64,000 nucleotides of DNA, taken from Arctopsyche grandis. Lineage: Eukaryota > Arthropoda > Insecta > Trichoptera > Hydropsychidae. The notes under the pieces were generated by a model. That model ran no database searches and had not been told where the DNA came from. It was given only the letters and a program-made list of their open reading frames with translations. Shown piece by piece: positions 6,033 through 54,608 of this stretch. Positions within the stretch are counted from its first letter, which is position 1, and every line of letters begins with the position of its first letter. The stretch lies in the NCBI RefSeq assembly GCF_051622035.1, contig NC_135365.1, forward strand, positions 14,178,001 to 14,242,000. Reading direction: 5' to 3'. The position numbers and the translations under genes were made by a program.

Positions 6033-6086
<54 letters not shown>
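6029..6086. repeat. (AT)n microsatellite, left flank of LTR element
   Basis: About 58 bp of uninterrupted AT dinucleotides directly abut the left LTR. A second AT run (9382-9448) abuts the right LTR, so the retroelement appears to have landed inside one AT tract and split it. Confidence 0.9.
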
Positions 6087-6091
<5 letters not shown>

Positions 6092-6287
6092 ATCCGGATG
6101 TGAAGGATTCCAAGTGAAACGCAGATTAAGTCAGAACTATGTATTTATTAACACATCTTCGGGCTTGCTCTCCAACAAGTGACCATAACAACACGCATCC
6201 GGTCTTTCCCATGCATACCACACTCATACTTTATCCCTTGCAGTTTGACCAACCACAATTACGGCTCGTTTAAAAATCATTCCTACA
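6085..6287 (-). repeat. 3' LTR
   Basis: Matches 9179-9381 without a visible difference. On the minus strand it begins TGTAGGAATG and ends near GGATCCTATA at the AT tract. The sequence just inside it (about 6288-6310) is only weakly purine-rich on the minus strand, so the polypurine tract is poor or displaced. Confidence 0.88.
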
Positions 6288-6351
6288 TTTCGGTCATTCC
6301 TGACTGTCATTCGCCCTCGGATGACATTCTGTCTTTTATATTTTTACAGCA

Positions 6352-6545: not shown

Positions 6546-6839
6546 ATCTTCCATTCCATAAAATCATCTTATATTCTTCTAAACATGCTTTCAATTGTCA
6601 CAATTACAATTTAAATCACAATTACAATCATCATCACAACTACATTTCAATACACTTATACGTCAATCATTTTACAATTTACATAACAATTACAATTATA
6701 ACAAATTAATCGTTACACATTTCACTACAAATCAATTTTTTCATTTCAACACAATTCAATCTTCAATAAAGTTACACATAACAATTAAAGTTACACATAA
6801 ATCATCACAATTACAATTTAAAATTATGTCAAGCAATAC

Positions 6840-7106
6840 AAAACATTAAAATCAATACCTTTACAATGACAAGTTAAATCTTTACATCGGAAACAATCAC
6901 ATTTTAAAACATTACTAGAATTAGCAATAAAACATTAAAATCAATACCTTTACAATGACAGGTTAAATCTTTACATCGGAAACAATCACATTTTATAACA
7001 TTACTAGAATTAGCAATAAAACATTAAAATCAATACCTTTACAATGACAGGTTAAATCTTTACACCAGAAACAATCACATTTTAAAACATTACTAGAATT
7101 ACATTT
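6840..7106. repeat. Tandem repeat, 89-bp period, three units
   Basis: Units beginning AAAACATTAAAATCAATACC start at 6840, 6929 and 7018, an exact 89-bp period, with one or a few substitutions each. The third unit breaks off near 7106. The period is not a multiple of three, so any reading frame through the array changes at each unit. Confidence 0.9.
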
Positions 7107-7226
7107 CAATACAGTTATCTTATATTCTTCTAAGCATGTAACCAAATTAAAACATGATTCAATATACAAAGCACTTCCCAAAAATACTAGAATAAGCAAT
7201 AAAACATTACACTTTTCAATCATCAA
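6993..7226 (-). CDS. Small cysteine-rich secreted-type ORF in LTR element
   Basis: A 77-codon ORF begins 95 bp downstream of the Gag stop on the same strand. Its N-terminus looks like a signal peptide: a charged start (MMIEKC), a hydrophobic core (NVLLLILVFLGSALYI) and then a Cys-rich remainder with about nine cysteines. The C-terminal third is read through the 89-bp tandem repeat and ends with a near copy of the leader core (NVLLLILVM). It resembles no family I know and sits where env or an accessory ORF could be. It may instead be an accidental frame of the repeat; coding status is inference only. Confidence 0.3.
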   Translation of the reverse strand: MMIEKCNVLLLILVFLGSALYIESCFNLVTCLEEYKITVLKCNSSNVLKCDCFWCKDLTCHCKGIDFNVLLLILVML

Positions 7227-7321
7227 ATTACAAGTAAGGCTTAACTAAAAACCCTCCAGATATTTAACTTATTCTCTAATTCACAAACGCACACTTCACT
7301 TCCATCGGCACAACTTAAATA

Positions 7322-9076
7322 CTATCCAATGCCGGTGGCGATTCTCTGTGACCGTCCGACGAACTCCCCGTCGCCCCACAGATTTCCTGCTAGTAATTTA
7401 CCATAAATGAAGTCAACACATATTGGTTCTGGCTCACTGATACATTCAATAAGTCTTTTATCAATCCATGGTTCTATTTTCTTTTCCATTGAATTAACAT
7501 CAATCCGACTACGACCGAGCTTGAAAGTGAATACAGTCTCTTTTGGTGTTGAAATTTTGACTGGGTCCCTTAATCCTTCTTGTGATTTAGCCATATCTTT
7601 CTCTTTGTCTTTATGTTTCTCCTTTTCTTTATTCTCATCTTCAGAATTCTTCAAATGACTATAATCCTTAGATCCTTTTCCAAATTGATCATCGGGTGGT
7701 TCATCTGTATTTGAAAACGGTATGTCTCCGTAGTCCCAAAGTCTTCTTCTTTGCAATCCATCACCGTCCATACTTTCATCAGCCAGGTTCACACCTCCAT
7801 CAGCCATGTTCGCATCGTCCTCTTCATCATTGGAAACAATGAGTTCTCTTTGAGCAGACATCTCTCGTGAAGCCCGTTGCTGCAAAGGTCTTTTTCTGTG
7901 CAAACCATCACTGTTCACACTTACATCAGCCAGGTTCACACCTCCATCAGCCATGTTTGCATCGTCCTCTTCATCATTGGAAACAATGAGTTCTCTTTGA
8001 GCAGACATCTCTCGTGAAGCCCGTTGCTGCAAAGGTCTTTTACATGCCTGTTGCCACACTTCCTTACGATCCCTCATGTCTTGCTCTTTTTTCCTCCTCG
8101 GCAGACTCCGTTCTAAGTTAACCTCCATCAAAACACACGGTTTTTTAACACATTTCACTTTGCTGCCGTCAATGCACATAAGAACGGATTCTGTGATAGG
8201 GCTACCCAACAGGGCGGCACCCGGGATACTGACTTCTTTTCTTATTTCTTCTTGTATTGTCAAGACAGTCTTTGTTTTGGTGCTGTTACATTGAGCTGAT
8301 ATGTGCCCAAACTCGTTGCAATTGAAGCAGCGGGTTCCTCTTTTCTTGAATCTGCAGTCGGCTGATAAGTGTCCACGTCCTCCGCAATTGTAACATTGTG
8401 GTCTCTCTCTTTCTCGGTTTCTTACGGGCCCCGCCACCCTGGGTTCGTCGTCCTCTCTAATTTTCTCGCACTGCGTAACTCGCGTCTTCAGCTCCTGGAT
8501 TGTACCGGCCCCGCTCAGCGTCATTTTTTCATACTTATCAAACCCAAGTCCACCAATTATGTACGCGATAATCGCCTCTTCCTCAATAAAACTACACTTG
8601 GCTGCAATCCCCTTCATCCTGTAAATGTAGCTTAAAATGTCTTCCGCTTTTCCCTTTTTTTCTAACCTCAGTTCTCTGTGCACGTCCGCACTATTCAACT
8701 GATGGCCAAACTCTCTGGTCAATCGTTCCTTAAGTATCGCCCACGTGACGATGCCCGTTTCCGAGTCCAAGAAGTCCTTGGCAGTTCCTTCACACAGCAT
8801 CCGCCCATACACCAACTGTTGTGTCTCCGTCCAGCCGAGGATTTGCGCGTTTTCTTCGAGGCGCTCAATCCACACTGCAATAGGGCTATTTCTGCCGTTA
8901 TATTTCGGCAGACCGAAACCAACCTCCAGATCTCGGAAATTGAACTGTGGTATCTCCCTCGTCGTCGTTGCCACTGGCGTCGTCGTGGATATCATCATCG
9001 TCGTGTGGCGTGTTCGCTGACGTGACGTCACCGACGTCACGGGCTTCGCCTTTAAGCTCGTACGCGATCTCGTCAT
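7322..9076 (-). CDS. Retroelement Gag with captured RBM25-like PWI domain
   Basis: 584 codons, intact. Residues about 45-230 form a Ty3/gypsy-type capsid region (LPKYNGRNSPIAVWIERLEE onward). Two CCHC zinc knuckles follow (CYNCGGRGHLSADC and CFNCNEFGHISAQC, about residues 235-275). After a linker comes a 49-residue acidic segment repeated twice (nt 7748-8041), then RRRLWDYGD, a Lys/Glu/Asp-rich stretch and, at about residues 515-565, a block containing EPWIDKRLIECISEPEP with CVDFIYGKLLAGN downstream. The PWI triplet is encoded near 7462-7471. This last block matches the start of the PWI nucleic-acid-binding domain of RBM25 in motif and spacing, but only the first part of the domain is present before a 20-residue unrelated end. 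Gag should package element RNA; the added domain suggests transduction of host splicing-factor sequence in place of pol. The Gag call is firm, the PWI call probable. Confidence 0.88.
   Translation of the reverse strand: MTRSRTSLKAKPVTSVTSRQRTRHTTMMISTTTPVATTTREIPQFNFRDLEVGFGLPKYNGRNSPIAVWIERLEENAQILGWTETQQLVYGRMLCEGTAKDFLDSETGIVTWAILKERLTREFGHQLNSADVHRELRLEKKGKAEDILSYIYRMKGIAAKCSFIEEEAIIAYIIGGLGFDKYEKMTLSGAGTIQELKTRVTQCEKIREDDEPRVAGPVRNRERERPQCYNCGGRGHLSADCRFKKRGTRCFNCNEFGHISAQCNSTKTKTVLTIQEEIRKEVSIPGAALLGSPITESVLMCIDGSKVKCVKKPCVLMEVNLERSLPRRKKEQDMRDRKEVWQQACKRPLQQRASREMSAQRELIVSNDEEDDANMADGGVNLADVSVNSDGLHRKRPLQQRASREMSAQRELIVSNDEEDDANMADGGVNLADESMDGDGLQRRRLWDYGDIPFSNTDEPPDDQFGKGSKDYSHLKNSEDENKEKEKHKDKEKDMAKSQEGLRDPVKISTPKETVFTFKLGRSRIDVNSMEKKIEPWIDKRLIECISEPEPICVDFIYGKLLAGNLWGDGEFVGRSQRIATGIG
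7748..8041 (-). repeat. In-frame 147-bp duplication inside Gag ORF
   Basis: Two adjacent 147-bp units encode near-identical 49-residue segments starting KRPLQQRASREMSAQREL and containing SNDEEDDANMADGGVNLAD. The length is a multiple of three, so the frame is kept. Differences cluster at the end of each unit (VSVNSDGLHR versus ESMDGDGLQR). Confidence 0.92.
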
Positions 9077-9158: not shown

Positions 9159-9177
9159 ATCCCGGACGAGGCCCCCA
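9159..9177 (-). other. Primer-binding site, proline-tRNA-like
   Basis: On the minus strand the bases just inside the 5' LTR read TGGGGGCCTCGTCCGGGAT. This is the complement of a tRNA-Pro 3' end (TGGGGGCTCGTCCGGGAT in well-known elements) with one extra C after position 7. It starts one base from the LTR edge, the expected place. Confidence 0.75.
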
Positions 9178-9178
9178 A

Positions 9179-9377
9179 ATATAGGATCCGGATGTGAAGG
9201 ATTCCAAGTGAAACGCAGATTAAGTCAGAACTATGTATTTATTAACACATCTTCGGGCTTGCTCTCCAACAAGTGACCATAACAACACGCATCCGGTCTT
9301 TCCCATGCATACCACACTCATACTTTATCCCTTGCAGTTTGACCAACCACAATTACGGCTCGTTTAAAAATCATTCC

Positions 9378-9381
<4 letters not shown>
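9179..9381 (-). repeat. 5' LTR
   Basis: Identical in my comparison to 6085-6287. It adjoins the primer-binding site on its inner side and an (AT)n tract on its outer side. Confidence 0.88.

Positions 9382-9448
<67 letters not shown>
9382..9448. repeat. (AT)n microsatellite, right flank of LTR element
   Basis: About 67 bp of AT dinucleotides continuing outward from the 5' LTR. It pairs with the tract at 6029-6086. Confidence 0.9.
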
Positions 9449-47100: not shown

Positions 47101-50100
47101 GGGGGCTATTCCTTTTTGAAATTATTATTGTATTTTTAGTATTGCAATTGATGTTTCTTTTTTCCATACAATTAATCAGTTTATCTCGACTTTATAAGGA
47201 TAATACATACATACATACATGTAAATATCGATGGCTTGTTGTACAGATTTCACATGTCCATTTTTGCATTTATATAGAATTTTAAGTTCATAGATACTGG
47301 AATAATTGAGGTTTTTCCATACAATATCTGTGTACTACACCATCGATATGTATTTAAGTCATACTTAAAATAAAAATTAAATGTATTGAGATGCTTAGAA
47401 AATGGAATAGGAAATCGCAGTTGGATTTTCTAATAAACCTATGCACTTAAGATGCAAAAAAATTGATCTTGAACTGTCAACATTGACTTTTAAAACTGGT
47501 TTTCATCTGGGTCGATTTCTAAACAATCTACGCTTTTACGGAAAGAAAATCTCGCATTAGGAAAACGAGTCGACTTTCTACGCGTAGGACGGCTCGTTAT
47601 GGTGGAGTCGCTTTTTCAATCTTAGAAACCTTGAACTGTACTCGTTCGATTAAAATTTGAATGTCAACATGAAAAGAGAAAACGCGCGGAGAAAGTCAAC
47701 TTTGATATATGTATTATTATTATTGTACGTGCATACTTATTCTTGGGCGCCATATGCAACATTGAAATGCGTAAACAGGTTTCACTGCTTCTCGTTGTCG
47801 TGCATACACATTCCCATTATGCTTAATTCTTCTTTTTTTTTTTTGTTCACTATCTAAAATAAAGTTACGACACCTCTGCTTCACTTTCTTCCAAATTAAT
47901 ACGTGTATCAACTTTCTTCGGAATTGTATCGGCAAATAACTGCTTTTAATCCGAATCACGTACGTACACGCTGTCCGGTGACCCAGCGAGAGTGATACGG
48001 ACGACCGTTTGGCATTCACAGTTGCTTTCTAAACAGATTTACGACTTTGAAAAGTGAATCCGACTCCTTGTGCGTCATAATCAATTGTGATTTGTCCGCA
48101 GGTTAAATGATGAGCTGGAAGGAAGAGTCGCTGGCGGGGAGTCAAATTCGAACGCGAATCTTCCGAGACTTGCAGCACTAAAGAAATCTGCCCTCAGAGA
48201 ACAATGTCCGTTGAGAGGCGTGCCGAGATGCCCATCAGCTTCTAAAAGGTCAGTGCTTATTATTACATTTGTGTAATTTGAATGTATCAACATATCAATC
48301 GGACTAAAGCAAATAAGCAACCCAATCTATGAAGACCTTTCCAAAAGAAATACGTACACAGTGAAATACCATTTTCACTGTGTACGTATTTCAGTGGTAA
48401 CTACGCGAGCTTTTTTAGAGCGTAGTTATTATTAGTCACCGGACCTAGAAGGGGCCGCGTATTGTTTAAAGGTTGTAAATGCATTGTTAAAGGTTTGCCG
48501 AACCTTTTTTACAAAAGATTTTCAACAATGGAACAATGGATAGCACTGTGACTATCCTACCTCTAGTTATTATCCTACTGGCCTATTTTTTCTATAGATG
48601 CAGTTGACAAGGGTTTCATTATAAAATATAATTTATATTTTAATAAAATGGATTTAACGACATATGTAGGTCCGTTCGTCAGTAATAAGTAAAGAGCGGC
48701 GGTCAGGTTTCCGTCATAAAATAACAATAGACCTCTCCATTGTCCGAGAAAGCAGGAGAGCAAAAAAATGGTTGACAATAGAAATTGGCAATAGTGAACC
48801 ATTTTTTAGCCGGAAGCAACCTGACCGCCTTGTCTTAGTAATGAACAGAGGTAGGCGTTGGCTCGATGCTTTTCGCCCAAAATATGGTTCACTATTGTCA
48901 ATTTCTTAGAAAAACCATGCTTTTTTGCTCCCTTGCTTTGAACATTAATGGAGAGGTCTATTGTTATTTGAAAAGCATCGAGTTAACGCCTACCTCTGGT
49001 AATTAGCATTATTTCTTGTTTTTAGCTAATCAGCTCCTTTGAGAGTATTGTTTTAAAGTAAAATGAACATCCCTGCTGGCAGAAAAAAGTATTTAGTTAT
49101 TTTCTGTGAAATTATTATAAACAGTAATTTCACACAAAAAATAGGTTCATCATTGTCTATTACAATGGCCAACCTTTTTTTTGCTCTCTAGCTTTGTATT
49201 TCATTGTAACAGACAATGGTGAACCCATTTTTTGTCCAAATAGCACTGGGTCTTGCCGATCTCTAGTCTCAATGAACGGCCATAGCAGGTACTGATATAC
49301 CATTAGTAAAGGGCGAATAGGGAGCGTGCTTTTTCCAGGAATCAGGGCGTTTTGTGTCTATTTACAAAGCTAGAGTGCAAAAAAAAGGTTCGGCGAACCT
49401 TTAACAAAGCACCGCGAACAATTAACAATGAACGGCACGCTTCCGGTCCGCTCACTAACCATAAGTATTCATTGCAGCTATTTCTTTTCTAAAGATGCGA
49501 GAATATCAATTTCTTGACTGGTATTCGTCCTTTATTAGTCTGAAAAAGAGGTTCACGCCCAAAATATAAATTACGCGCTAAAAAAGCTCGTGTCCCCACC
49601 ACTGAGTCGTATGTATGTACATACATTAGTGTGTAATAAGTAGAGGTAGGACCGGAAGCGTGCCGTTTATTCTTCAATTGTTTGTGAAAAAGGTTAGGCA
49701 AACCTTTAACAATGCATTTACAACATTTGAACAATAAACGGCCCCCTCAGGGTCCGGGCTTTAGTAATAAGCACTTATTTAACTTACACAGGTATCGTAC
49801 ACACGATGGTACATGCAACAACCCAAGAAGAGGACGCTGGGGATCCGCCCTTACCCCGGTGGAGCGCTTCTTGCCCCCGTCTTATACTGATGGAGCTGGT
49901 GAAGCTCGTGGAGTAAGAGACGATCGTCTTCCGAGTGCTCGGCTAGTGAGCGAGCATGTCCACACGGGTCGTCCTCGCGATGCTTCTGCTATCACTCATC
50001 TGCTCATGCAATGGGGACAATTCCTTGATCATGACATCACATCGTCGTCCCAGGCAAGGTCCTTCAATGGTTCAGTGCCGCGATGCTGTCTTGACCGTGG

Positions 50101-53100
50101 ACGACGATTCGTACCAGCCCAATTCTTGGTGAGATATACAAAGCCTATCTCCTTAAAAAAAAACTTATTTTTTTCTTATCATCAGCATTGAAAATACTAT
50201 TCGATTTCAGCATCCAGAATGTATGCCTATAGAAGTACCGGAAGATGACCCCTTCTACGGGCCACTAGGTATCCGTTGCTTGGAGTTCGTTCGCTCAAGT
50301 CCAGCTCCAAGAGTCGACTGCGAATTTGGCTGGCGAGAGCAAATGAACCAAGTCACCGCTTACATTGATGCCTCGCCCATTTACAGCAGTTCAGCTCGAC
50401 AAGCTGATAAATTAAGGCTGTTCAGAAACGGTATGTAGGTATTGTCTAAATACTTCAAGCTAAATAAATAAAATCAAGCTGCATTTCCAGTGTTTCATTT
50501 ACTGTTATAGGTTTACTACAGTATGGACGAGCACAAGCTAGAAGACCGTTGCTACCACCAAGAGAAGACGATGAAGAAGCACTATGTCAAGGAGGTGCTG
50601 TGGATGCTTCATGTTTCAAAGCCGGGGATGGCAGAGTGAACGAACATCCAGGCCTCGTAGCCATGCACATTATATGGTTGAGGAAGCATAACCGGTGAAT
50701 ATGCAATATAAAATATTATATGCTATTTACATTTAATTGTTTACACAAATTTTTTTAATAAAGCTTGGCCACAGAACTCGCACATCTCAATCCTCATTGG
50801 AGCGATGAAAAATTATATCAAGAATCAAGAAAGATTATTGGCGCTTTCATTCAACATATAACTTTTAGAGAATTTTTGCCAATTGTTTTGGGTGAGAATT
50901 ATTAATTTATTACCTACGTATATTGTAAATTAGTTTAAATGCTTATAAACGAATATTTATATACATTTAGGTTCTGAAGTGACACGACTATTCGATTTAG
51001 ACTTAGTCAAAAAAGGATATTACAAAGGTTATAGTAGTAAAGTGAATCCGAGTCCTGCCAATTCTTTTGGTGCAGCTGCTTTCAGATTCGGCCATAGTCT
51101 CGTTCAAGATTCTTTCATGAGATATGATCATTTTCACAGACCACTACCCAACAGTTAGTGATATTTTCTATTTTATTTTTCTAATTTTTTTACAATTGCA
51201 ATTTATTTACAACGGAATTTTAATTTTCGCAGATGTTTCTCTCCACGATGAACTGACTAATCCTTCAAATATATGGAGTTTTGGTGCCGTAGATAGACTA
51301 GTTCTAGGCATGTGCAATCAACCATCACAAAAAAGAGATGAGTTCATCACTCCGGAGTTGACAAATCATTTATTTCAAACGTCTCGATTTGAATTTGGAA
51401 TGGATCTTGCTGCAATTAACATCCAAAGAGGCAGAGATCATGGTATTCCAACATACGTTGAATGGCGTGAACCCTGTGGTCTTACACCCGTAATGGAATG
51501 GTCGGATCTGCTAAAAATTATGCCAGCAAGTACTGTTAGAAATTTGAGAGATGTTTACATGTAAGATTATATTATGTATATCAAGATTTTTTTGCTGTTG
51601 AAAATATTGACACTATCTTAACAATATTGTTACAATTTAGAGATGTTGACGATATTGATCTATTTACTGGAGGAATGTCAGAGCGTCCTGTAGTCGGAGG
51701 TCTTGTTGGACCAACATTTGCTTGTATTATAGCACAACAATTTTCTAATATTCGGAGAGGAGATCGATTTTGGTAAGTTTATCATTATTTTTAATTCAGT
51801 TTTAAAGTGTGCTTGTGACTTTTTTATGTATGGTATTTTTATTTTTATAGGTATGAGAATGGAGGTTTTGAGTCCTCATTTACACCTGCACAATTACAAC
51901 AAATTAGAAAAGTAACGCTCGCCCAAATTCTTTGCCAAACATTAGAGAGCATAGAAACGGTACAACCTTTTGTATTTTTGACTGCAGACAACTTACGGAA
52001 TGAACGATTACCTTGCGGAGCAAAAATACTGAACAATTTTGACTTGACTCCTTGGACTGAACGCAGACTAGACTTTTCTAATGACATAAATGACATTGAC
52101 AGAGGAAGTTTCATTAAAAGTTCTTCTACAAAACCCCATAATATCCACAAAACTTCCACACCACCGACAATAAATCCTAAATTGACAACTGACTCGACGT
52201 TGAACAAATTTACCTCTTCTGATTCTAATAAAATCGATGACAAATTAGATTTTTCTGACAACATGAAATCGAAAATCAATACCGATCCAACTGTACATTT
52301 TATAACTAATACGACCGACTTACAAAACGACTCTCTTCTTTCAAACTTGACTTCGACACCGACTGTCAAAATAGACGACAAATTAGAGACCTTGTTTAGT
52401 GACTTACAAAAAAATCTCAATAAAAACATACTGGCAGACGCTGACAAGCTACAAGTTGACCAAAGATCTTTTCCTAATGTGAAAAATGTAACGCAACTTC
52501 AAAACAACAAAAATAATTCTTCACTTAACCATACTGACGAAATAAATTCAAGACCGAACCAAAAAGACAATAAAAAACAATCAAACAATGACTTTTCAGA
52601 CGACGAGGAAAGTTCTGTAAAAACTTTAGGCTTTTTATTGAATAGTGACTCCCAATTACCATTCTTTGACAGACTCTTCAACAGACAATCGACGACTACT
52701 GAAAAACCGTTGACCCGACCAAGACCAAAGCCTCAAATAGAGTATTATCATTCAACTCAAAGTCCAAACAGATATACGTATTTAATAAACATTGTGCCCA
52801 AAACCACAACACCAAAATACGTATCGAGCTTTCCACAAAAAGAAACTATAAAAATCACAGTTCAAGGGTCTACACCTTCTAAAATAAGACCCCAAACTAA
52901 TGTATTTCCATATAACAAACGACCCGTATACGATAACAATAAATTGGAGTATCGACCTATGACTACCTTCCACCAAATTGTAAATCAAGATCCATACAAT
53001 AACAATGCACGACCACAAAGTTCAAATTCGAAACCACAATTTTCCACCACTTATAATCGTCCACAATCGAATAATCCATTGAGTGATTTTCCTGATAGTT

Positions 53101-54608
53101 ACTTCAATTCAGATCAACAAGACAACACAGATTCCTTCCAAACTGGATATAATAGACCAAATCGACCATACAGACCGAACGCAAATGCCTATACAACTGA
53201 GTATAATCCTTACACTCTTGTAACCTTCAGCCACGTCGAAACCACCAAACGATATAATTCATTCAACCCTAATGATGATTATTTCATACCAAACAAAGTA
53301 CCGACAAGACCGACTTTGAGCAACAATGAAGCTAACTATGGACAGAACTTACGACCTTCAAACAAACCAGCTAATACTGGAATAACGATTTATATTGAAA
53401 ATAGTCCGCCAAAAGTAGATCCTATAAATACTTTTACTTCCAATAATGGTTACGGGTCTTCAAATTCCAAACCAATTATTCAAAATTCTTTTGATAATGA
53501 AGAAATCATTCCTCTTTTTACTCGCCCAAGCTACCAAAAACCTTTACTAAACAGACCATTGACGAACTCAAAACCGACTTACCAAGGCACTACATCTTTC
53601 AGTACCATTCGACCGACAAATGACAATTACGACAAACCACTCCAAAGCGAATATGGACAATTTTCAAACACATACAACTCTCAACAAACAAATACGCAAT
53701 ACCCTCAAGTTAGTTCAACAAATAACAAAAATCCTTTTTATGGTTACGGAACAAACAAATATCCAGAGAATAAAAATCCACCAAATAAACCTAGACCGAC
53801 AAACGTCAATATAAATCTGGCCTCCGAGTATGGCAATCAACAGCACACAGATATTTCCATTGTTATTGATCCAAATTTACAAAATAAACCTCAGTTGAAA
53901 CCACAAAGCACTTATCAATCATTCCATAAATCCTACAGTACAACTAAAGCGCCTACTAAATATTTTTATATTGGTAATGTACTACACAAATATCCAGAAG
54001 ATGATGAAAATGGAAAAACATTTACGCCAAAAACTCCTCAAAGCAATTATAAGAGCGATCACATTGTAAGAGAAAATTACAATAATATTTGGAAGCCAGA
54101 TAAAAATGAACACACCTTATATTATGGTTCGCCAGATGAAGATGAAAAAAAAATAAAAGCACCGAAAGAAAATGAATCTCTTGAAAATAGCAAAGATGAA
54201 CCAAAGCAAAAAACAATTGGAAATGGAAGAGGTGATACACAGGGCACATTTCCATTAAAGCGTCCAATTACACAGAGATTGAAATTACCAAAACCGGCCA
54301 ATAATAAAGTTAAAGACAAAGTATTTTTTGATGTCATACCGAGTGAAAACAGGTAATACATTTGAAATTCTCACGTTAATGTTAAATTATAGGTTATTTG
54401 AAATTTCATTAAAGTATCTATGTACTTTATCATTTACAGCCCAATGACATGGATAACATTTAATGAAAAACCTGAAGAATCTTCATCAGATAATCCATAT
54501 AACATCATGCCAAAAATAGCTGAAGATCCAAACGCATCAAAGGAATTACCAAGACCAATGAGTTTAAATTCCAAAAGATTCATTCACAGACAAGTTGACA
54601 AACAATAA
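35127..54608 (+). CDS. Secreted heme peroxidase with long disordered tail
   Basis: Twelve exons join in phase: 35127-36091, 36169-36295, 48102-48248, 49792-50128, 50211-50430, 50511-50694, 50764-50891, 50971-51153, 51233-51560, 51641-51772, 51851-54352, 54440-54608 (1806 residues plus a missing start). The first visible exon opens with a hydrophobic stretch ([14 protein letters not shown]), probably a signal peptide completed upstream, then about 300 Ser/Thr/Glu-rich residues. The animal heme peroxidase domain follows. Its key residues are present: distal His in WGQFLDHD (codon 50030), Arg and Glu in [10 protein letters not shown] (50633, 50642), proximal His in FRFGHS (51093) and the signature [13 protein letters not shown]. 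After it come roughly 800 residues rich in Asn, Pro, Tyr, Thr and Lys with no fold. No Ig or LRR repeats, so not peroxidasin. It should oxidise extracellular substrates with hydrogen peroxide; natural substrate unknown. Intron 3 is 11.8 kb and full of transposons. Confidence 0.93.
36990..37345 (+). mobile_element. tRNA-derived SINE, nearly full length
   Basis: Inside peroxidase intron 3. A box GTAGCTCATTGGTTAGCG, B box GGGCTCGAGCCC, then GCTGGCCAGACCTTGG, the core GATCGTTTCCTATCAGAGTT and a long distal part with CATAGATGTCTCTGCAGATG. This is the most complete copy and the best guide to the family. Confidence 0.8.
37346..38997. other. Intron 3 sequence, nothing recognised
   Basis: AT-rich intronic DNA. 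The word CGAACCA/TTCATGAACGAAC recurs near 37480 and 37850 but no gene or complete element is seen. Confidence 0.3.
38998..39087 (+). repeat. 90-bp direct repeat, left copy
   Basis: The sequence from ATATTTGGTAAAAAAGAAGG to CGAAAAATGATG is repeated at 39490-39579 with no difference that I can see. The two copies border the foldback element. Confidence 0.93.
39088..39488. mobile_element. Foldback element, 401 bp, complete
   Basis: The terminal inverted repeats start GGTCTACGTGACGAGACAGA and (right end, reverse complement) GGTCTCCGTGGCGAGACAGA. The whole element folds on itself, with arms of nearly 200 bp around a short loop containing TCTGCGCGCGCACAT. Its inner arms match 32847-33128. No coding capacity. 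The class is unclear; the ends do not match hAT or PIF/Harbinger. Confidence 0.85.
39490..39579 (+). repeat. 90-bp direct repeat, right copy
   Basis: Second copy of 38998-39087, separated from the end of the foldback element by one base. Confidence 0.93.
39930..40020. mobile_element. Remnant of a dispersed arthropod repeat
   Basis: An ATCATC run is followed by ATCCACTGCTGGATGAAGGC and CTCTCCAACACGTTTCC. The words CCACTGCTGGA and AGGCCTC after ATCATC runs are common in dispersed repeats of many arthropod genomes. Only this fragment is present. Confidence 0.5.
40140..40453. mobile_element. PIF/Harbinger-type MITE, 314 bp
   Basis: Termini GGGCGAAAACAAACAAAGAG and (right end, reverse complement) GGGCAAAGCACACAGAGGCA begin long imperfect inverted repeats containing GGCACGCGGCACGTGTTTTT. 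A 3-bp TAA flanks each side (40137-40139, 40454-40456), fitting the TWA preference of PIF/Harbinger. No transposase. Confidence 0.8.
40461..40720. mobile_element. Diverged partial MITE related to 40140-40453
   Basis: The right part reads CTAAAAAAATACGTGCCGTG then TACCACTCTGTGT, closely following the right end of the adjacent MITE (AAAAAAACACGTGCCGCGTG, CCTCTGTGTG). The left end is not clear. Confidence 0.4.
40738..40947 (-). pseudogene. RTE-like LINE C-terminal fragment, broken
   Basis: Read on the minus strand the frame gives [20 protein letters not shown], then WVGHVV, MDKR, and GRWVDEI, interrupted by at least four stop codons. The order W-[AV]-GHV-x-R-MD and RWxDEI is the usual C-terminal end of insect RTE-type reverse transcriptase proteins. 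The rest of the LINE is absent. It lies within peroxidase intron 3. Confidence 0.7.
40948..44691. other. Intron 3 sequence, nothing recognised
   Basis: No exon that could join the neighbouring peroxidase exons is needed, since 36295 and 48102 already match in phase. Open frames here, such as 41434-41676 on the minus strand, resemble nothing I know. Confidence 0.35.
44692..44965 (+). mobile_element. tRNA-derived SINE, well preserved
   Basis: A box CATAGCTCGGTGGTTGCG, B box GGGTTCAAGCCC, then the linker GTGCTGCTGGTCATACTTGG and the core GATCGTTTCC...TTTATCTGATTTCATTG. It ends TTTGAATAGAATTTCAAATG. It shares its variant head with 22900-23116. Confidence 0.75.
45774..45955 (+). promoter_or_regulatory. 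TATA plus initiator promoter with short first exon
   Basis: TATATATA begins near 45774 and a TCAGTATA initiator has its A at 45807, about 31 bp apart, the ideal geometry. An ATG follows at about 45875-45880, and [16 protein letters not shown] can be read before a donor-like GCG|GTAATT. The exon would end in phase 1, which does not match peroxidase exon 3 (phase 2), so it is not a simple alternative start of that gene. It may drive an unknown nested transcript in intron 3. Confidence 0.4.
46284..46654. mobile_element. Nonautonomous hAT-like element, 371 bp
   Basis: The left end is CATATGCGGATCTATGG and the right end in reverse complement CAGTAGCGGATCCATAA. The 8-bp flanks ATTAAAGC and ATTAAAAC differ at one position. 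A run of about 16 Cs lies near the right end. AT-rich interior, no transposase. Intronic. Confidence 0.75.
46663..48101. other. End of intron 3, nothing recognised
   Basis: AT-rich up to about 47500, then more balanced to the acceptor TTTGTCCGCAG at 48101. No additional exon is supported. Confidence 0.35.
48347..48392. repeat. Hairpin, 20-bp perfect arms
   Basis: GAAATACGTACACAGTGAAA (48347-48366) and its exact reverse complement (48373-48392) flank a 6-bp loop. It lies 99 bp after peroxidase exon 3. It may be the core of a small transposon remnant. Confidence 0.9.
48450..49770. mobile_element. Nested cluster of short hAT-like MITEs
   Basis: Intron 4 of the peroxidase is filled with small related inverted-repeat elements. 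Recurrent words include CAATAGACCTCTCCATTG, CAATAGTGAACCATTTTTT, GGTTCGGCGAACCTTTAAC and GGTTAGGCAAACCTTTAAC, in both orientations. One element (48698-48829) has GGCGGTCAGGTT ends. The cluster runs to within about 20 bp of the acceptor of exon 4 (49791). Confidence 0.6.
48846..48998. mobile_element. Short hAT-like MITE, 153 bp
   Basis: Ends CAGAGGTAGGCGTTGGCTCG and (reverse complement of right end) CAGAGGTAGGCGTTAACTCG match at 18 of 20 positions. The 8-bp flanks share GTAAT only. Same family as 11640-11772. Confidence 0.65.

Follow-up and report, generated by a model that had tools for sequence, protein, structure and literature searches.

Gag fused to a spliced fragment of the host RBM25 gene in a pol-less LTR element of the caddisfly Arctopsyche grandis

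Capture of host genes by LTR elements is known mostly from single retrocopies, from oncogenic retroviruses, and from a small number of plant elements, Bs1 among them. In the oncogene-transducing defective retroviruses, sequence derived from a host mRNA is fused to gag, pol is lost, and a helper is needed. In plants, TR-GAG elements are non-autonomous LTR retrotransposons that carry gag only. The element described here, from the caddisfly Arctopsyche grandis, is of the known kind represented by Bs1 and the transducing retroviruses and is an unusual variant of it. It resembles the transducing retroviruses in the fusion of gag to host mRNA-derived sequence and in the loss of pol, but it is a genomic retrotransposon family of an insect, and its cargo is a truncated splicing-factor domain. 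It resembles TR-GAG elements in having LTRs and gag and no pol, but differs in its animal host and in the captured host domain on its Gag. Bs1 of maize, as described in the portions consulted of two reports (PMC7264820, PMC5408686), is likewise an LTR retrotransposon with transduced pieces of host genes; in contrast to Bs1, the caddisfly element belongs to an animal, is apparently of the Ty3/Gypsy type, has RBM25 as its donor, retains a capsid and two CCHC knuckles, and is present as many young copies in which the captured tail occurs with three gag types. Retrocopies formed by LTR-mediated retroposition, as presented in part of one of these reports (PMC5408686), share with it the joining of a spliced mRNA to the cDNA of an LTR element at a microsimilarity, but the caddisfly chimera became a mobile family rather than a single retrocopy. 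No Gag-RBM25 fusion was found among the titles and abstracts listed in the open-access literature.

The window analysed is a stretch of 64,000 nucleotides (contig NC_135365.1, positions 14,178,001 to 14,242,000 of the forward strand, assembly GCF_051622035.1). It contains, on the minus strand and set in a (TA)n repeat, an element of ~3.3 kb without pol, the sole long open reading frame (ORF) of which is a single, intact Gag-RBM25 fusion of 584 codons plus stop (9076–7322). The two LTRs are identical across a 204-nt exact direct repeat (9179–9382 and 6085–6288); trimmed to the LTR ends of other copies (TGTAG...CCTATA), the repeat yields a 5′ LTR at 9180–9381 (TGTAGG...CCTATA) and a 3′ LTR at 6086–6287, both on the minus strand. 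Directly after the 5′ LTR lies a primer-binding-site-like sequence, TGGGGGCCTCGTCCGGGAT (9159–9177, minus strand); at this position some other copies read TGGGGGCTCGTCCGGGAT, and the form TGGGGGC(C)TCGTCCGGGAT is found after the 5′ LTR in copies. The sequence TGGGGGCTCGTCCGGGAT presumably resembles a tRNA-Pro primer-binding site. Across loci L001–L058 the site differs, with, for example, CTCG, CCTCG, CTTTG, or CTTCG after GGGGG, and our guess is that this variation stems from the copying of primer ends that belonged to different tRNAs. A stretch that is weakly purine-rich by eye precedes the 3′ LTR, where a polypurine tract would be expected. The 3′ noncoding region (6747–7301, minus strand) is homologous by blastn to the DNA that follows the pol stop codon of a pol-containing relative, L060, and is overlapped by three 89-nt repeats (6840–7106). 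Elsewhere, the window contains an exon-like ORF (49712–50191) with a motif that we take to be haem-peroxidase-like, and a 792-codon Pro/Thr/Asn-rich ORF (51978–54356) lying in a strong strand composition skew.

An earlier note on this DNA, made from the letters alone, had described an intact 584-codon Gag frame with a capsid and two CCHC knuckles that continues into an RBM25-like block, and our analysis confirms that description. In particular, a capsid-like domain (residues 41–210; 8447–8956, minus strand) is indicated by AlphaFold, in which its pLDDT is mostly 70–88, by structure alignments, in which capsid structures are the best matches to the predicted Gag fold (VIA-align, two rows), and by a sub-threshold Retrotrans_gag match (E 4e-4). 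Two CCHC zinc knuckles follow (residues 222–266; 8279–8413, minus strand; PF00098, 6.3e-10, in two stretches), and repeat analysis identifies the acidic linker as a tandem 147-nt duplication (7738–8031, minus strand). The combination of capsid and CCHC is a Ty3/Gypsy gag feature, one that is common to other retroelement groups too; the pol order protease, reverse transcriptase (RT), RNase H, integrase is present in L060 and absent in the window element, which is therefore a derivative and not an autonomous member of Ty3/Gypsy. The window element has what is expected of a gag-only non-autonomous LTR element, namely an intact gag, no pol, and multiplication, and we classify it as a probable non-autonomous LTR retrotransposon of Ty3/Gypsy type, the type label resting on Pfam matches and domain order.

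The C-terminal part of the ORF contains captured host RBM25 sequence (residues ~457–564; 7386–7707, minus strand), which takes in the initial ~30 positions of a PWI domain as well as a charged stretch. The best PDB match of the ORF is human RBM25 (PDB 3v53; 7.9e-8 for residues 507–564, and 4.9e-13 by profile). P0011, a public protein that carries the tail on a different gag (type C), matches RBM25 in the PDB at 1.9e-10. The Pfam PWI profile (PF01480), which the earlier note had proposed as a check, did not deliver a significant match: the E value is 0.11, below the cut-off, and only positions 2–30 of 72 are covered. Its further claim that only the first part of the domain is kept agrees with this coverage. 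After position ~30 the sequence is pol-derived; a complete 72-position PWI domain is absent by sequence, and a whole domain in the tail is rejected. Compared with RBM25 (RED120), the source of residues ~457–564, as covered in the consulted part of PMC10639069, the element has no RRM that could be seen, part of the charged region only, and that same portion of the PWI domain.

A search of the host genome for the PWI family returned six places, among them the intron-bearing host RBM25 gene (C3:10888720), so that a parental gene is present in the same genome, as the earlier note had proposed. In this gene, an exon ending in KSLIDKIPTQKDALFAFKLDCNQ is followed by an 87-nt GT-AG intron and by an exon beginning with IDVPLMEKKIRPWINKKIIEYIGEPEPTLVDFICSKVLAG. 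Window positions 7707–7386 align at the DNA level with these two exons (C3:10888403-10888814), and the intron is precisely missing at 7504–7505 (minus strand), where the host reads CAG before the intron and ATTGAT after it. At the protein level, 64 of 108 columns are identical over residues ~457–564. The absence of the 87-nt intron indicates that the sequence comes from spliced RNA of the RBM25 gene or of a near relative. The alignment begins at the acceptor of the next upstream host intron, which hints at a second splice junction there, with just 26 bases beyond that acceptor read; in all, 501 nt of host RBM25 were read, from DNA, and one splice junction was read fully. Two other genes were rejected as donors: L059 (C1:1500977-1502480), a PWI gene with a sequence that is SRRM1-like and not RBM25-like, and L063 on C5, which is ZC3H14-like. 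In L059, the PWI domain is also split by an intron, after position 33.

These alignments bear on the view that the block is an ordinary Gag or accessory domain with a chance likeness to PWI. The sub-threshold Pfam score is in keeping with such a likeness, but the PDB profile match, the 64 of 108 identical columns, and the DNA alignment across a host splice junction are not, and we consider the view almost certainly wrong, the host exon alignment refuting it. The earlier note had also named pol-containing relatives as the place where an ordinary Gag domain should recur. In the one such relative examined, L060, no RBM25-like match was found in the last third of the frame, so that the block is absent there; this part of the comparison extends as far as that single relative.

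L060 came to light when the genome was searched with P0012, the type C relative. Its frame runs uninterrupted for 1264 codons and matches gag, CCHC, protease, RT, RNase H, and integrase; in gag, L060 shows 78% identity to P0012 and 30% to the window Gag. The end of the window ORF (7325–7395, minus strand, including a 10-nt overlap with the RBM25 sequence) aligns with the pol 3′ end of L060 (L060 4245–4389) in a shifted frame. Specifically, the window ORF terminates in LWGDGEFVGRSQRIATGIG and L060, in the shifted frame at its pol end, reads GKLWCDGGSIADNIIGRSYEAMAGIG, the shared stretch corresponds to the ~20 last residues, and the coding part scores above 500 of 500 shuffles. Past both stop codons, blastn aligns the window with L060 in two segments, each at 71% identity, one of 374 columns (E 1e-54) and the other of 276 columns (E 4e-41). 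The retention of the pol 3′ end and of related DNA after the stop indicates that most of pol was replaced and that its last bases now code in another frame, which bears out the pol loss claimed in the earlier note. Part of the protease, with 26 of 35 residues identical, also survives in type C.

The junction between RBM25 and pol is an overlap of 10 nt (7386–7395, minus strand), at which the host reads TACTAGCTGG, L060 reads TACCGGCTGG, and the element reads TACTAGCAGG; the element tracks the host up to TACTAGCAGG and L060 thereafter. Host and L060 share 8 of these 10 bases, with a chance of about 0.0004 for one fixed place. The similarity fits template switching but does not prove it; template switching at microsimilarities is the published model of LTR-mediated retroposition (PMC5408686, in the portion consulted). 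A decayed copy of the tail, L062 (C11:1140000-1140300), has the same pol-end junction, GKLWGDGRSIPDNII. Its PWI part is nearer to the host than that of the window (dN 0.094 vs 0.193), and L062 is perhaps an early witness of the capture.

The Gag-RBM25 fusion, the spliced donor sequence, the loss of pol with its 3′ end remaining, and the many recent copies are direct observations, and the earlier reading of structure and origin is supported. We are confident in the following account of how they came about, namely that this is a non-autonomous Ty3/Gypsy-type element with a Gag fused to a piece of RBM25 by template-switch capture, dependent on borrowed enzymes and bearing a tolerated or mildly useful tail. 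A particle would have held both element RNA and RBM25 mRNA; RT acting there would have jumped, near the pol 3′ end and at a short match, into the RBM25 mRNA, and would later have returned to the element further upstream. The resulting chimera would make Gag and form particles, and RT, protease, and integrase would come from pol-containing relatives, which would mobilise it in trans. Further template switching would swap gag cores. The tail would be a translated, charged, mostly disordered extension of Gag, tolerated or mildly useful, and not a working PWI domain.

The first genome search gave at least 140 match rows (from the best 75 of 660 candidates scored), and 58 loci were read, taken from the best-scoring places, so that the sample leans towards intact copies. 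Both LTRs are present in 48 of the 58 loci, and one LTR alone was found within the fetched stretch in the other 10; the LTR pair is identical in 28 of the 48. At sites other than plain (TA)n, a 4-nt duplication, TACA or TGTA, is readable in at least 11 of the 48 two-LTR loci; this count is a lower bound, since some LTR ends were wrongly placed (e.g., in L014, L019, L025, and L041). The members of two pairs of loci, L029/L030 and L036/L037, probably do not represent separate insertions. The second pair lies within C9:3090043-3286333, where eight listed copies in ~200 kb all have two TGA and one TAG in the gag frame, probably an old insertion multiplied by local duplication.

Local arrays such as that at C9:3.09-3.29 Mb are what would be expected had a host RBM25-like gene been fused to Gag at the DNA level, as a domesticated gene, and then duplicated. 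That origin is highly improbable, given the LTR pairs at 48 of 58 loci, the target-site duplications in 11, the spread over many chromosomes and (TA)n sites, and the missing donor intron; a single domesticated gene is rejected by the LTR pairs and target-site duplications across copies.

The copies carry the tail on three gag types. In 49 of the 58 loci there is a tail-ending ORF of more than 450 codons, 42 of type A and 7 of type B (left out of this set, which was used for dN/dS, were L023, L036, L037, L039, L040, L042, L043, L045, and L046). For type C, the evidence consists of two public proteins and genome coordinates rather than of its DNA. Among the best 82 of 473 candidates, at least 29 places match both the type C gag, from residue 1 onwards, and the tail, in frames of 581–610 codons, one of the 29 places having a stop. 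The tail of P0011, which is of type C, and that of the window are 61% identical. The other public gene model, P0012, is without part of the tail, and the matching genome places have one open frame of ~584 codons across the gap, which is probably a false intron in the annotation. When the type C tail was compared with proteins, P0011 and P0012 alone were returned among 12 candidates, and an alignment that included the human RBM25 piece returned the same two alone at E ≤ 0.001 among the best 8000 candidates by shared words. The tail search itself gave 12 proteins, all from A. grandis, as predicted proteins sharing 5-residue words, a result that says little on other caddisflies. Relatives of the gag, 41–43% identical to type C, are present at C13:11921500, C4:15929835, C182:235001, and other places; they have open frames of ~699 codons, too short for gag-pol, without a tail match among the matches listed, and are possibly another cargo-bearing or gag-only family.

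Silent divergence differs along the ORF. Between types A and B, dS is saturated in the gag core, 0.019 to 0.056 in residues 394–564, and 0.08 in the last 20 residues; within type A, dS reaches 0.36 in the knuckles, compared with 0.20 in residues 267–393, 0.10 in the gag core, and 0.03–0.05 in residues 394–564. Silent divergence between the A and B tails is thus far below that of the gag core, indicating that the parts recombine. Types A and C have in common tail features that are derived relative to the host, namely RDPVKISTPK with a five-codon loss and GRS in place of DCN, a pattern suggesting that the capture happened once and that gag cores were exchanged afterwards.

Constraint is likewise uneven. 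Among copies, dN/dS is lowest in the knuckles (0.06–0.07), followed by the Lys/Glu-rich part (0.10), the type A gag core (0.19), and the PWI-like part (0.37–0.57); it is about 1.0 for the acidic linker and 1.2–2.7 for the last 20 residues, the values for the tail resting on small numbers of changes. In an earlier set of 18 copies, the ratio was 0.91 over the tail and 1.13 over the PWI part. Between host and window, over 101 codons, dS is 0.29 and dN 0.20 (ratio 0.69; PWI part 0.74), and comparison of the host with five other copies gives 0.91–1.00 for the PWI part, values that offer no argument for a conserved function. The decayed L062 gives 0.36 against the host over 35 codons. There are three coding indels relative to the host, of 6, 6, and 15 nt; of 317 noncoding indels, 51 have a length divisible by 3, counted pairwise against L001 such that one event may count many times. 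That the ORF indels among copies are all multiples of 3 follows by construction, since only open frames entered the set. Neutral simulation leaves the 106 captured codons free of stops with a probability of 0.07–0.28. The PWI half has low pLDDT in the AlphaFold model of the whole protein. We read this as a frame that was apparently kept while the details of PWI relaxed.

Two further readings of the tail turn on these values. One, to which we give slightly less than an even chance, is that of a passenger tail: any template at hand took the place of pol, and the frame is open mainly through youth and through RNA decay upon a premature stop. The low tail divergence (dS 0.02–0.06 at residues 394–564), the relaxed PWI constraint, and a no-stop chance in the captured part of up to 0.28 accord with it, but the type A and C tails are both open at identities down to 61%, the indels relative to the host preserve the frame, and the early, decayed copy L062 has a dN/dS of 0.36 over its 35 codons. 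The other, which follows the role suggested in the earlier note and which we think unlikely, is that the tail was selected as a working RNA- or spliceosome-targeting module, bringing Gag or element RNA to nuclear speckles or keeping genomic RNA unspliced. It draws on in-frame indels relative to the host where noncoding indels are mostly out of frame, on the dN/dS of 0.10 in the Lys/Glu-rich part among copies, and on the occurrence of the tail with three gag types. It is opposed by the PWI match at positions 2–30 of 72 only with low pLDDT, by a PWI dN/dS against the host of 0.7–1.0, and by the report, in the part consulted, that the RE-rich part of human RBM25, and not PWI, bound G-quadruplex RNA (PMC10639069).

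The donor, the splice and capture junctions, a pol-containing relative, and many young offspring are all found in one insect genome, and capture, pol loss, and spread can therefore be read from sequence. The fusion also offers a natural Gag variant with which to ask whether a splicing-factor tail alters the location of Gag and the RNA that it binds. A more far-reaching reading, which we put forward as doubtful, is that the tail is a transferable Gag module, captured once from RBM25 mRNA in an L060-like lineage and recombined onto different capsid cores since it was beneficial; it might, for instance, tether Gag to RNA that is nascent or spliced, or serve as a decoy for host RBM25. If true, a retrotransposon particle would have gained a domesticated cellular splicing protein as one of its structural components.
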